64,000 nt of DNA, taken from positions 124,001-188,000 of the forward strand of contig NZ_JACSQG010000002.1 in NCBI RefSeq assembly GCF_014836765.1. Direction: 5' to 3'. Shown in pieces: positions 7,416-12,895 of this stretch; position 1 is the stretch's first letter; the number at the start of each line of letters is the position of its first letter. Below the pieces are notes generated by a model. The model was not told the DNA's origin, did no database searches, and saw only the letters and a list, made by a program, of their open reading frames with translations. The DNA is from Serpens gallinarum. GTDB lineage: Bacteria; Pseudomonadota; Gammaproteobacteria; Pseudomonadales; Pseudomonadaceae. A program made the position numbers and the translations under genes.

Positions 7416-8366
7416 CTACAGCGCGAAGGGCAGCGCGCTGTCGGCCTGTTGGCGTGCCTCCAGCAAGCAGCGGAATTCGTCGGGATTCTTGATCAGTACG
7501 GTGCGGCCGGCATTTTCTTCCGCAGCGATCAGCCGCGACAGCCAGAAGCGCACGCAGGCGATACGCAACATGGCCGGCCAGAGTTCGGCTTCAGCCGGGG
7601 TGAAATGGCGCTGCGTCGAGTAGGCGCCCAACAGGGCCTGGGTGCGCGCCGGGTCGAGCGGACCGTCCGGCGTCGAACACCAGTCGTTCACGGTGATCGC
7701 CAAGTCGTAGAGCATCGGACCTGAGCAGGCGTTGTAAAAGTCGATCACGCCGGTCAGGTGCGTGCCTTCGAACAGCACGTTGTCGCGGAATAAATCGGCG
7801 TGCAAGTTGGCGCGAGGCAGGGTCTGCAGGCGCGGCAACAGTGCCTGGATTTCCGCCAGGGCATCGCGCAACAGCGGCAATTGTTCATCGGGCAGGCTCA
7901 GGGCCAGGCTGGGCCCTTGCTCCAGCATCCACGCCAGGCCGCGATCGCTGGGACGTTCCAGAACCCGCTCGCGGGTGGCCAGGTGCAGTTGCGCCAGCCA
8001 GTCGCCGACCTCCGCGCAATGGTGCGGATTGGGTTCGCTGACATGGCTGCCTGGCAGGCGCGGTTGCAGCAGCGCGGGTTTTTCCGCCAGAGAGCGCAGC
8101 GCCATGCCGTCGCGATCGCGCAGCGCGTAAGGCACCGCGAGATCGGCCTGGTGCAGCACATCGAGCAGCTCGATGAAAAACGGCAGATCGTCTACCGGGC
8201 CACGCTCGACCAGGGTCAGCACGAATTCGCCACCTTCCAGGCTGACAAAGAAGTTACTGTTTTCGGTGCCGGCGGCGATGCCCTGGAATTCATGCAACCG
8301 CCCCAACCCGTAGGGGGCCAGGAAGGTTTCCAGTTCGTGTTGTTCGAGTGGCGTAAAGACTGACAT
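7416..8366 (-). CDS. thrB: Homoserine kinase (phosphotransferase-fold type)
   Basis: Phosphorylates L-homoserine to O-phosphohomoserine in threonine synthesis. At 316 aa it belongs to the aminoglycoside-phosphotransferase-like class used by Pseudomonas, not the GHMP kinase class of E. coli. The catalytic loop [15 protein letters not shown] and the metal-binding GVIDFYNAC segment are intact. The N terminus ([22 protein letters not shown]) is typical of the family. The DUF2782 gene begins upstream on the same strand and ends 7 bases before this start, so the two form a short operon, as I remember from other Pseudomonas. Confidence 0.95.
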
Positions 8367-8733: not shown

Positions 8734-11517
8734 ATGAGTCAAGTGCCCCTCGTCCTGGTGGACGGTTCCTCCTATCTGTATCGCGCCTTCCACGCCCTAC
8801 CGCCGCTGACCACCTCCAAAGGCCTGCCGACCGGTGCGGTCAAGGGCGTGCTGAACATGCTGCTCAGCCTGCGCAAGCAGTACCCGGACAGCCCCTTTGC
8901 CGTGGTGTTTGACGCCAAGGGCGGCACCTTCCGCGATGAGTTGTTCGCCGACTACAAGGCCAACCGGCCGTCGATGCCCGATGAGCTGCGCCTGCAGATC
9001 GAACCGCTGCACGCCAGTGTGCAAGCCCTCGGCCTGCCGCTGCTGTGCGTCGAAGGAGTCGAGGCCGACGACGTGATCGGCACCCTCGCCCGCCAATGTG
9101 CCGCGCAGAGCCGCGACGTGGTGATTTCCACCGGCGACAAGGACATGGCGCAATTGGTCTGCCCCCATGTCAGCTTGGTCAACACCATGACCGGCAGCGT
9201 CTATGACGTCGAGGGTGTTAAGACCAAATTCGGCGTCGGTCCCGAACTGATCATCGACTTCCTCGCGCTGATGGGCGACAAGGTCGATAACATTCCCGGC
9301 GTGCCGGGGGTCGGCGAGAAAACCGCGCTGGGCCTCCTGACCGGGATTCCCGGTGGTCTGGACGGGCTGTATGCCAATCTCGACAAGGTCGCCGAGCTGC
9401 CGATTCGCGGCGCCAAGACCCTCGGCGCCAAGCTCGCCGAACATCGGGAGATGGCGTACCTCTCTTACCAGCTGGCCACCATCAAGCTGGACGTGCCGCT
9501 GGATATCGAGATCGAACAGCTGCACCCCGGGGCAACGGATGACGCGGCGCTGATCGAGTTGTACCGTGAGCTGGAATTCAAGACCTGGCTCAATGAACTG
9601 CTGCGCAAGGCGCCGCCAGCCCCCGCGCCGAGCCAGCCGGGCGCCAGCGGCGACCTGTTCGCCGAGCCGGCGGCACTCGAAGCCGAAACAGCGCTCGTCG
9701 ACACCGAGAGCCGCTACGAAACCTTGCTCGATCCGGCCCGTTTCGACGCCTGGCTGGACAAGTTGCGCGCTGCCCCGCTGTTCGCCTTCGACACCAAAAC
9801 CGCGGGCGAGGACGCCCAGCAGGCGTTGCTGGTCGGCTTGTCCTTCGCGGTCGACTGCCATGAGGCAGCTTATGTGCCGCTGGCCCATACCTACATGGGT
9901 GTGCCGCAGCAGCTGGACCGTGACAGAGTACTTACGGCCCTCAAGCCGTTGCTGGAAGATCCGGCCAGGGCCAAGGTCACCCAGCACGGTAAATTCGACA
10001 TGAATGTGCTGGCGCGCTATGGCATCGAGGTGCGCGGCCTGGCGTTCGACACCCTGCTCGAATCCTATGTGCTGGACTCCGTCGCCACGCGCCACAACAT
10101 GGACGCCCTGGCGCTGAAGTACCTCAACCACGGCACCATCCGCTTCGAGGATATTGCCGGCAAGGGTGCCAAGCAGCTGACGTTCGACCAGATTGCCTTG
10201 GAGCAGGCCGGTCCCTTTGCGGCCGAGGATGCCGATCTCACTCTGCGCCTGCATCAGAGTCTGTGGCCCAAGCTGCAGGCGGTGCCGAGCCTGGCCAGTG
10301 TGCTGACCGACATCGAAATGCCGCTGATGCCGGTGCTGGCGCGTATCGAGCGCCAAGGTGCGCTGGTGGATGCCAAGCTGCTCGGTGAACACAGCCGCGA
10401 ACTGGGCGAACGTCTGGTGCAGCTGGAGCGCGAAGCCTTTGCCATTGCCGGCGAGGAATTCAATCTTGGCTCGCCTAAGCAGTTGGGGGTGATTCTCTAC
10501 GAAAAGCTCGGCTTGCCTGTCCTGAGCAAAACCGCCAAGGGGCAACCTTCTACCGCTGAAAGCGTGCTCGCCGAACTGGCCGAGCAGGAGTATGAGCTGC
10601 CTAAGGTACTGATGCAGTACCGCAGCCTGAGCAAGTTGAAGAGCACTTACACCGACCGCCTGCCCGAACAGATCAACCCGCAGACGGGACGCATCCACAC
10701 CAGTTACCAACAGGCCGTCACGGCGACCGGGCGTTTGTCTTCCCAAGACCCGAACCTGCAGAACATCCCGATCCGCACCGCCGAAGGGCGGCGCATTCGT
10801 CAGGCGTTCATCGCGCCCGAGGGTTACAAGCTGCTGGCCGCTGACTACTCGCAGATCGAGCTACGCATCATGGCCCACCTGGCCCAGGATGCCGGCCTGC
10901 TGCATGCGTTCCAGAACAATCTGGACGTGCACCGTGCGACCGCCGCTGAGGTGTTCGGCGTCCCGCTGGATCAGGTCAGTCATGATCAGCGGCGCAGCTC
11001 CAAGGCGATCAATTTCGGCTTGATCTACGGCATGAGCGCCTTTGGCCTGGCCAAGCAGATCGGTGTCGACCGCAAGGAGGCCCAGGCCTATATCGACCGC
11101 TACTTCGCTCGCTATCCCGGTGTGCTCGCTTACATGGAACGCACCCGCGAGCAAGCCGCCGCCCAAGGGTACGTCGAGACGCTGTTCGGCCGTCGTCTGT
11201 ACCTTCCGGAGATCAACGCGAAGAACGGCGCGATGCGCAAGGCGGCGGAGCGTACCGCCATCAACGCACCCATGCAGGGTACTGCGGCGGACATCATGAA
11301 ACGCGCCATGGTGGCGGTGGATACCTGGCTGCAGAACAGCGGCCTGGATGCGCGCGTGATTTTGCAGGTGCACGACGAACTGGTGCTGGAGGTGCGTGAA
11401 GAGCTGCTCGATCAGGTGCGTGAGCAGGTTATCTCCCTGATGAGCCATGCCGCTGAGCTGGCCGTGCCGCTCCTAGTTGAGGCAGGCATGGGTAACAACT
11501 GGGACGAAGCACACTGA
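8734..11517 (+). CDS. polA: DNA polymerase I, with altered 3'-5' exonuclease residues
   Basis: Repair and Okazaki-fragment polymerase, 927 aa against 928 in E. coli. Residues 1-290 are the 5'-3' exonuclease ([34 protein letters not shown]). Residues ~330-520 are the 3'-5' exonuclease domain, and the C-terminal part is the polymerase with motif A ([13 protein letters not shown]), motif B ([14 protein letters not shown]) and motif C (VHDELVLE). In the proofreading site, exo motif I reads FAFDTKT: K355 stands where E. coli has E357. Exo motif III has F495 in place of Y497, while D353, D422 and D499 remain. The ATG at 8734 gives the standard N terminus; the longer open frame from 8365 is not expected to be coding. 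Confidence 0.96.
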
Positions 11518-11654: not shown

Positions 11655-11779
11655 GAATGGGTGAAGCCGTTCATTGCTCCTTGTTGTGTTTAGTGTTGGC
11701 AGATATCCGGGCCTCGCCATAGCGGTTCGGATTTGAACCTCGAACTTCCCCTCCCCATACGAAGTTCGAGGTTTTTTTT
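11655..11779 (+). ncRNA. ersA: ErsA-like (Spot 42-position) small RNA
   Basis: A probable ~125-nt sRNA between polA and engB, the position of Spot 42 in enterics and ErsA in Pseudomonas. It is preceded by a sigma-E-type promoter and ends in a strong intrinsic terminator: left arm at 11736-11748, right arm at 11761-11771, core stem CCTCGAACTTC/GAAGTTCGAGG, then eight T. The C-rich terminal loop (CCCTCCCCATAC) could pair with ribosome binding sites. ErsA is about 132 nt and acts with Hfq on envelope and exopolysaccharide targets in P. aeruginosa. Size, position, orientation and promoter type agree, but the 5' end is inferred. Confidence 0.75.
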
Positions 11780-11821
11780 GCCTGTAACACGTGCGTAAAC
11801 CGGGCGCAACGCAGCTGTGGT

Positions 11822-12478
11822 TCAGCCCTGCTGCTGGTCCTGTTCGGCTGCATTCTCGTCCTGGCCGAGCTCCAGCCAGTTGGCCAGCACCGCCAGCGCT
11901 TCATCAATGCCTTGGCGCTTGGGGGCCGAGAACAGCTGGACGCTGACCTCCTCGCCCCAGCCGTCGCGCACGTCTTTCTGCACCTTGAGCAGCGCATTCT
12001 TGGCCGCGCCGAAAGCCAGCTTATCGGCCTTGGTCAGCAAAATGTGCAGCGGCATCCCGCTGGCCTGCGACCAGTCGAGCATCAGGCGATCGAACTCGGT
12101 GAGCGGATGGCGGATATCCATCAGCAGGATCAGGCCGGCCAGGCTATTGCGGCTGCCCAAGTAGGCTTCCAGGTGCTTTTGCCAGTGCAGCTTGAGTGGA
12201 ATCGGCACTTTGGCGTAGCCATAACCAGGCAAGTCGACCAGGCGACGCTGTCCATCCAGTGCGAAGAAGTTGAGCAACTGCGTACGGCCTGGGGTTTTCG
12301 AGGTGCGCGCCAGGCTGGCATGGGTCAGGGTATTCAGCGCGCTGGACTTGCCGGCATTGGAACGTCCGGCGAACGCCACCTCCAGACCTTCGTCCGGCGG
12401 GCATTGATCAACCTTGGCGGCACTGATGAGAAAGGCGGCCTGTTGGCACAGGCCGAGGATCGGATTCTTGGTTGACAT
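11822..12478 (-). CDS. engB: Ribosome biogenesis GTPase EngB/YihA
   Basis: 218-aa TRAFAC-class GTPase needed for large-subunit ribosome assembly. The G1 motif is [10 protein letters not shown], switch and G3 are [11 protein letters not shown] and [11 protein letters not shown]4 is TKAD and G5 is SAPKRQG. The chosen ATG at 12478 gives the usual start ([20 protein letters not shown]). The open frame runs 123 codons further upstream, but that part overlaps the decayed cytochrome on the other strand and is not family-like. It is convergent to polA and the sRNA. Confidence 0.94.
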
Positions 12479-12549
12479 GGGCTTTCCAGGGGTGCGACTC
12501 GGCGTCGCAGGCGGCGGTTTCGTTTCCGTTTCAGCGGCGCAAGTATATA

Positions 12550-12895
12550 ATGCCGCAGATTTTGTGTGCGCTTTGTTCCGTGGTTGTGTGGCAATGGGCT
12601 GGTAATTCACGCTCAGGCCGCACACTATCCGCAAACGGTCTTTTGAGCGTAGCTGCGGCGTCTGCCTTAAAAGACAGTTGCCCATGGCGCTACACACAGG
12701 GCGATACTGCCTGAAACTGCTGCTGGATAAGGCATGGGCACTCCGGTACCCCATGTCGTCAATGGATTCAACGCCATGCCGCCGAGCGGCATGTGGATGG
12801 ATTGCTCTGTCGAGGACTACAAGGCCGTCATCGAAGCGGATGAGCACGTAACTCCAAAAGCCCCTCTCACCCTTAGCCGTTATTGGATTAGCTGA
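12550..12895 (+). pseudogene. Decayed c5-type cytochrome c gene
   Basis: Remains of a small exported cytochrome can be read across several frames. An initial ATG at 12550 opens a hydrophobic leader, followed after a frame change by [12 protein letters not shown]. After another shift comes ERSCGVC (12654-12665 encode C-G-V-C). The next residues of a CxxCH site, HGAT, appear only after 17 extra bases (12666-12682). The C-terminal part from 12735 reads [19 protein letters not shown], then [15 protein letters not shown], closely like c5 cytochromes. The normal CMDC is changed to WMDC. Its final TGA overlaps the cytochrome c4 ATG. I recall an intact small cytochrome at this position in P. aeruginosa. 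At least three lesions argue against function. Confidence 0.7.

Follow-up and report, generated by a model that had tools for sequence, protein, structure and literature searches.

The window, that is, the whole 64,000-nucleotide stretch of Serpens gallinarum DNA that we analyzed, carries polA, the gene for DNA polymerase I, flanked by a homoserine-kinase-like gene and by engB. The features are as follows, with residues numbered as in the window PolA unless E. coli is named.

7416-8366, minus strand: homoserine-kinase-like gene, flanking polA
8734..11517, plus strand: polA, encoding the 927-aa DNA polymerase I, with 62% identity to E. coli PolA over residues 4-928
9709..10287, plus strand: 3'-5' exonuclease (DEDDy) domain, taken here as residues 326-518
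9790..9810, plus strand: exo motif I, D353-T-K355-T-A357-G-E359; intact relatives mostly D-T/S-E-T-T-G/S-L/I/V
9997..9999, plus strand: exo motif II, D422 kept (E. coli D424)
10216..10230, plus strand: exo motif III, F495-A-A-E-D499, D499 kept; intact relatives Y-x-x-x-D
within 11822-12847, minus strand: engB, flanking polA

A 1050-aa open reading frame listed from 8365 starts too early for polA. The PolA chain consists of FEN, 3'-5' exonuclease and family A polymerase domains (full-length alignment, PF01612 and Klenow matches), and we assign it to PolA1, or DNA polymerase I, on the ground that the 5' nuclease, DnaQ-like and polymerase domains lie in one chain. PolA2 (APEX), an actinobacterial form without a 5' nuclease domain (PMC12926913, in excerpt), is ruled out by the presence of that domain with its carboxylates. 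By sequence, the closest relative with a solved structure is the Klenow fragment, with a shared fold over 594 and 588 residues (1kfs and 1kln; 63% and 62% identity); the Pol I enzymes of Bacillus, Mycobacterium and Taq (1xwl, 6vde and 3rtv) are likewise of family A and share the fold but are distant (39, 38 and 43% identity). These last three enzymes are known not to proofread and have lost other site residues than the window PolA. The exonuclease domain is matched by PF01612 (G000:C2:133715-134278, equal to window 9715-10278) at 101.7 bits against a cut-off of 23.6 and, because the domain still scores so far above this cut-off, a domain search is blind to loss of the site. The window genome has a single PolA match, and hence no second PolA as a source of proofreading; its sole other PF01612 match is a 382-aa frame on contig C1, which may be RNase D.

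As in the window, engB (yihA) follows polA in E. coli. Directly downstream of polA we observed the small RNA ErsA (Pseudomon-1; window 11674-11787, plus strand, 124.6 bits), whose place beside polA is occupied in E. coli by Spot 42. An open reading frame listed at 11671-11997 on the minus strand overlaps ErsA and is probably not a gene.

Residues of the proofreading site

Using E. coli K-12 PolA (L215), aligned with the window PolA, as the reference for residue placement, we find that the original prediction had located and numbered the motifs correctly, with 9790-10233 spanning motifs I to III. D353 (codon at 9790), D422 and D499 (codon at 10228) are retained as the equivalents of E. coli D355, D424 and D501, and, as had been predicted, K355 (codon AAA, 9796-9798) replaces E357 and F495 (codon TTT, 10216-10218) replaces Y497. 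The DEDDy set for active proofreading (D355, E357, D424, D501, Y497), which E. coli Klenow keeps in full, is therefore incomplete in the window PolA. Two further changes in motif I had been overlooked: A357 where relatives have T357, and E359 in place of the usual L359 (E. coli L361), the third changed substrate-site residue. The remainder of the enzyme looks normal, as had been claimed, since 12/12 checked residues are identical to those of E. coli (D705, R754, K758, Y766, D882 and E883, which we take to be the key polymerase residues, and D13, D63, D115, D116, D138 and D140, which we take to be the 5' nuclease carboxylates). With FEN, DnaQ-like and polymerase domains and a retained exonuclease domain bearing DEDDy substitutions, the window PolA fits the class of PolA1 with inactivated proofreading described by Timinskas et al. 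2026 (PMC12926913, in excerpt).

The deviations of the window PolA from its relatives are concentrated in this site. Of the 458 columns with >=97% conservation among the 151 intact Pseudomonadaceae PolAs, five are changed in the window, and two of these belong to the catalytic columns, which number five in all (hypergeometric P about 0.0009); by domain there are four deviations in the exonuclease, one in the polymerase and none in the FEN domain, or 4/81 exonuclease columns versus 1/377 in the other two (Fisher P 0.004). Both P values are rough, because the same five catalytic columns served to define the intact set and prompted the choice of the finding. Residues 321-927 were modelled with AlphaFold (mean pLDDT 92.4), and the model matches Klenow 1kfs with Z 45.3 and an rmsd of 2.8 over 594 residues, and on the strength of this confident match the exonuclease domain would be expected to fold.

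Distribution across the family and the class

To describe how common such sites are, we gathered 214 loci, 213 of them with PolA (L001 is without). Together with the window these gave 204 distinct rows, two of which are the window sequence, and hence 203 distinct PolAs. Here intact means that all five catalytic residues are present and nothing more. By this definition 158/203 are intact (151 Pseudomonadaceae and 7 other Gammaproteobacteria) and 45/203 are substituted, the latter comprising 2 from the window genus, 22 from a P. syringae group and 21 from a P. mandelii / lini / brassicacearum group (hereafter the mandelii group), figures that are counts and not frequencies because relatives of the window and of the P. 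syringae group are over-represented in the sample. The names of the two Pseudomonas groups are ours and follow presumed taxonomy. Scattered single losses outside the three groups are absent among the 203 distinct PolAs. The intact sequences are also uniform around the site: F471 is present in all 158, T357 in 157, and 157 have L, I or V at position 359. Two records deserve mention for their labels. L085, titled Pantoea sp. Cy-639, has a PolA that groups with P. putida and is perhaps mislabelled, and L036 is titled P. viridiflava isolate p13.H9, but its PolA is intact and lies in the tree at a distance from that of P. viridiflava p23.C6 (L097), which makes the label doubtful.

Drawn by genome, the family sample comprised 398 genomes, 393 with a PolA match and 171 typed. 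The typed genomes include 134 intact and 37 substituted; the substituted ones are 2/2 in genus g1 and 35/120 in genus g15, and the 17 other typed genera are intact in 49/49. Substituted Pseudomonadaceae typed from whole genomes range from 3.8 to 6.7 Mb. For the class we drew 150 genomes, 147 with a PolA match, of which two are Pseudomonadaceae (the window and G016) and two more were left out (G491 and G520, whose listed match is without part or all of the site). The remaining 143 loci are 129 intact and 14 substituted. Twelve of these 14 genomes are <=2.4 Mb, with sizes tallied for the 14 alone and a few of them aligning badly; since the published survey found no link with genome size across bacteria (PMC12926913, in excerpt), we do not press this trend. 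One such genome (L398, G536; 1.0 Mb), from a gammaproteobacterium of another family, has a PolA with E357K and D501G in E. coli numbering, two changes of the window's congener.

Origins of the losses

In the genus of the window, for which the comparison consists of the window and one other genome (G001, L004), loss of site residues is common to both (2/2) and is further advanced in the congener. At the five catalytic positions the congener has N, K, D, Y and G (D353N, E355K, D499G), with T356L, T357N and F471L in addition, and at the >=97% conserved columns it deviates at 14/81 in the exonuclease, 1/220 in the polymerase and 0/157 in the FEN domain; intact relatives have a mean of 0.57 exonuclease deviations and at most 6. 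To the question of strain or lineage raised by the original prediction there is a divided answer: K355 is common to the genus (2/2 genomes), whereas F495 occurs in the window species alone of the two. The end-branch ratio of exonuclease to the rest of PolA is 1.55 for the window, reached by 20/93 intact tips, and 2.59 for the congener, reached by 1/93. Because its ratio lies within the intact range, the window domain appears damaged at the site and not generally decayed. Its pN ratio of exonuclease to polymerase against intact sequences is 1.58, and those of two intact neighbours are 1.50 and 1.55. Loss of function in the window species may be recent.

The ancestry of the two genes is less uniform across analyses. 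In an rpoB tree of 30 genomes the window and the congener are sisters (SH-aLRT 96), and a window plus congener clade is 12.39 higher in likelihood outside the exonuclease domain (set of 39; p-AU 0.72) and 1.64 lower within it (p-AU 0.27), and is rejected in neither part. By rpoB identity, however, the congener is outside the window's ten nearest genomes, free PolA trees with the exonuclease domain removed place the window apart from it and beside the intact G351 (SH-aLRT 95), and in sliding windows the nearest PolA is that of the congener in 1/16 and of G351 in 3/16. That the window species acquired its polA by horizontal replacement, as the free trees and sliding windows would suggest, was not kept as the preferred reading, since the AU tests and the neighbour genes are against it: the homoserine-kinase-like neighbour has its best non-self match in the congener, and EngB there also scores near the top. 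We infer a single origin, in which E probably changed to K in the genus ancestor and was followed by separate decay in the two species; two separate E-to-K changes, or an exchange of polA, may have occurred instead, and two changes would fit the free trees, the sliding windows and the rpoB identity.

The substituted Pseudomonas sequences form two groups, composed as follows.

P. syringae group: loci L087, L097, L104, L115-L135; D353V in 22/22 distinct sequences, E355Q in 21/22 and E355K in the remaining one, D422A in 10/22, D499E in 19/22; named members Pseudomonas sp. KUIN-1, P. californiensis CDFA601, P. viridiflava p23.C6
P. mandelii / lini / brassicacearum group: loci L066, L067, L072, L073, L075, L076, L079, L092, L149, L152-L158, L161-L166; named members P. 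mandelii RIT-562, P. lini DSM 16768, P. brassicacearum CCUG 51508, P. fluorescens PS862, and further P. violetae TNT19 and strains Q11, QTF5 and GM18

Sites read VQAYE, VQDYE, VQDFD or VKDFD in the first group (n=22) and VEEYD, VEDYD, VEEFD, VEEYG or VQEYD in the second (n=21), where D353V is found in 21/21, D422E in 19/21 and a changed F471 in 13/21 distinct sequences. D353V is common to both groups, as is T357N in most sequences. On a fixed topology, the exonuclease has a tree length, relative to the rest, of 2.18 in the syringae and 2.02 in the mandelii group, whereas the 151 intact sequences give 0.98 and four intact groups give 0.77-1.38; this points to relaxed selection on the exonuclease domain in both substituted groups. 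Mean changes at conserved exonuclease columns are 10.9 (syringae) and 7.3 (mandelii), against 2.1 vs 0 in FEN and 1.3 vs 1.5 in the polymerase. Pairwise pN ratios of exonuclease to polymerase are 3.16 (syringae), 2.05 (mandelii) and 1.87 (600 intact pairs), those of exonuclease to FEN are 2.58, 2.84 and 1.43, and exonuclease pN/pS in the mandelii group (0.110) is below that of intact pairs (0.163). These values would agree with relaxation in the syringae group and only weakly in the mandelii group, whose exonuclease to polymerase ratio is hardly raised.

Outside the exonuclease domain, the AU test rejects a common origin of the syringae and mandelii losses (likelihood 127.91 lower, p-AU 1.2e-8). 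From the exonuclease domain alone, with the motifs left out, the joint clade is 6.21 higher (p-AU 0.69), and since it is allowed there, transfer of the segment between the two groups is possible. P. cichorii (L103) and P. capsici (L102) are intact yet lie inside the syringae group in PolA trees; a single clade of the substituted syringae sequences is not rejected (AU p 0.43). Across Pseudomonadaceae, at least two and probably three separate losses have occurred in the Pol I proofreading site.

Predicted activity and significance

We propose that the window encodes a Pol I that very probably has little or no 3'-5' exonuclease and is otherwise ordinary, its site inactivated by point substitutions. 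The original prediction had read the site in this way, and this is the best-supported reading in view of alanine data from Tt72 polymerase and of the worse site in the congener; both the loss of activity and any effect on mutation are deduced from the substitutions. E357 is a metal ligand in the Klenow-type exonuclease site. Its change to K would remove this ligand and put a positive charge at the place of the metal ion, Y497F would remove the hydroxyl that contacts the phosphate, and L361E would spoil the hydrophobic pocket for the 3'-terminal nucleotide, the roles of Y497 and L361 being those given in PMC9324360 (in excerpt). In the same source, Ala at the equivalents of E357, Y497 and L361 in Tt72, a related family A polymerase, leaves 7%, 4% and 23% of wild-type activity, a comparison limited by the window changes being K, F and E rather than Ala, with three of four carboxylates kept. 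Y to F alone may matter less because the corresponding Tyr of T4 polymerase is directed away from the site (PMC8867116, in excerpt). The exonuclease domain would stay folded, probably as a scaffold between the 5' nuclease and the polymerase. Some Pol I members are inactive in proofreading despite having the domain (PMC11048162, in excerpt). The Pol I of H. pylori is without D355, D424 and D501 and, as measured, does not edit, but extends mismatches and carries out mutagenic bypass (PMC3121766, in excerpt); its exonuclease fold is likely preserved, as in the window, where the changed residues are instead E357, Y497 and L361 and are known from sequence.

The cell would tolerate a non-checking Pol I in gap filling and Okazaki fragment maturation with DnaQ proofreading and MutS mismatch repair in place. 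For Klenow, the exonuclease adds only about a factor of 10 to fidelity (PMC8867116, available portion). In the window genome, the congener and four others, DnaQ keeps D12, E14, D103, H162 and D167, which we take to be its active-site residues, and the MutS match is nearly full length in 6/6 genomes and without stops in the window genome. Both the window genome and the congener have Pol II, and there is no link that would indicate compensation by Pol II (28/29 substituted versus 29/31 intact genomes); Y-family matches likewise show no clear difference, with means of 2.7 in 29 substituted and 2.3 in 31 intact genomes.

Other readings of the site must be weighed. The exonuclease could be weakened and not dead, with the three carboxylates holding one or two metals and a low activity still under selection. 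Retention of D353, D422 and D499 and a remaining domain nearly as conserved as in intact relatives agree with this, but three metal or substrate positions are changed together, one of them K for E, each equivalent Ala alone costs 77-96% in Tt72 (PMC9324360, available text), and the congener is minus two more carboxylates; we regard this reading as improbable. Even less probable is a remodelled site in which Lys replaces the metal, or 3' ends are bound uncut, in favour of strand displacement or bypass of damaged bases. E to K does recur, since besides the window and the congener it is seen in a single sequence of the P. syringae group (VKDFD) and in a gammaproteobacterial genome of 1.0 Mb (DKDYG), and the proofreading-dead H. 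pylori Pol I participates in bypass (PMC3121766, available text). However, E to K needs one base change, the losses that go with K355 differ between the two species, as expected from decay, and the Y-family matches just given (2.7 versus 2.3) do not differ clearly. The base-call error that the original prediction raised as a possibility, or an assembly error, has next to no chance of being the explanation, with several changes in two motifs, an open frame, a genome 99.99% complete and K355 recurring in the congener. On the scale of the family, it is unlikely that the repeated loss was favoured, through extension of mismatches or lesions, with the dead segment perhaps recombined between the syringae and mandelii groups.

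Inactivation of the window site by point substitutions, the preferred reading, belongs to a kind of loss that is already known. About half of bacterial PolA1 orthologues have a changed DEDDy motif, and the loss is largely phylum-specific and commonest in Firmicutes, Tenericutes and Actinobacteria (PMC12926913, in excerpt). Unlike this phylum-wise pattern, the losses reported here fall into three groups within a single gammaproteobacterial family, the other typed members of which are intact. The word Pseudomonas occurs 0 times in the main text of that paper, among the papers listed, titles and the start of abstracts revealed nothing on loss of proofreading in Pseudomonas Pol I, and, supplements aside, we did not find repeated loss within Pseudomonadaceae in print among them. 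Because loss of DEDDy elsewhere runs largely by phylum (PMC12926913, available part), effect and ancestry are hard to part there. A single family whose species differ in one active site is a natural experiment on the purpose of Pol I proofreading, and comparisons of damage bypass and of mutation spectra between such species, especially for the lagging strand in the latter, would test what this proofreading contributes.
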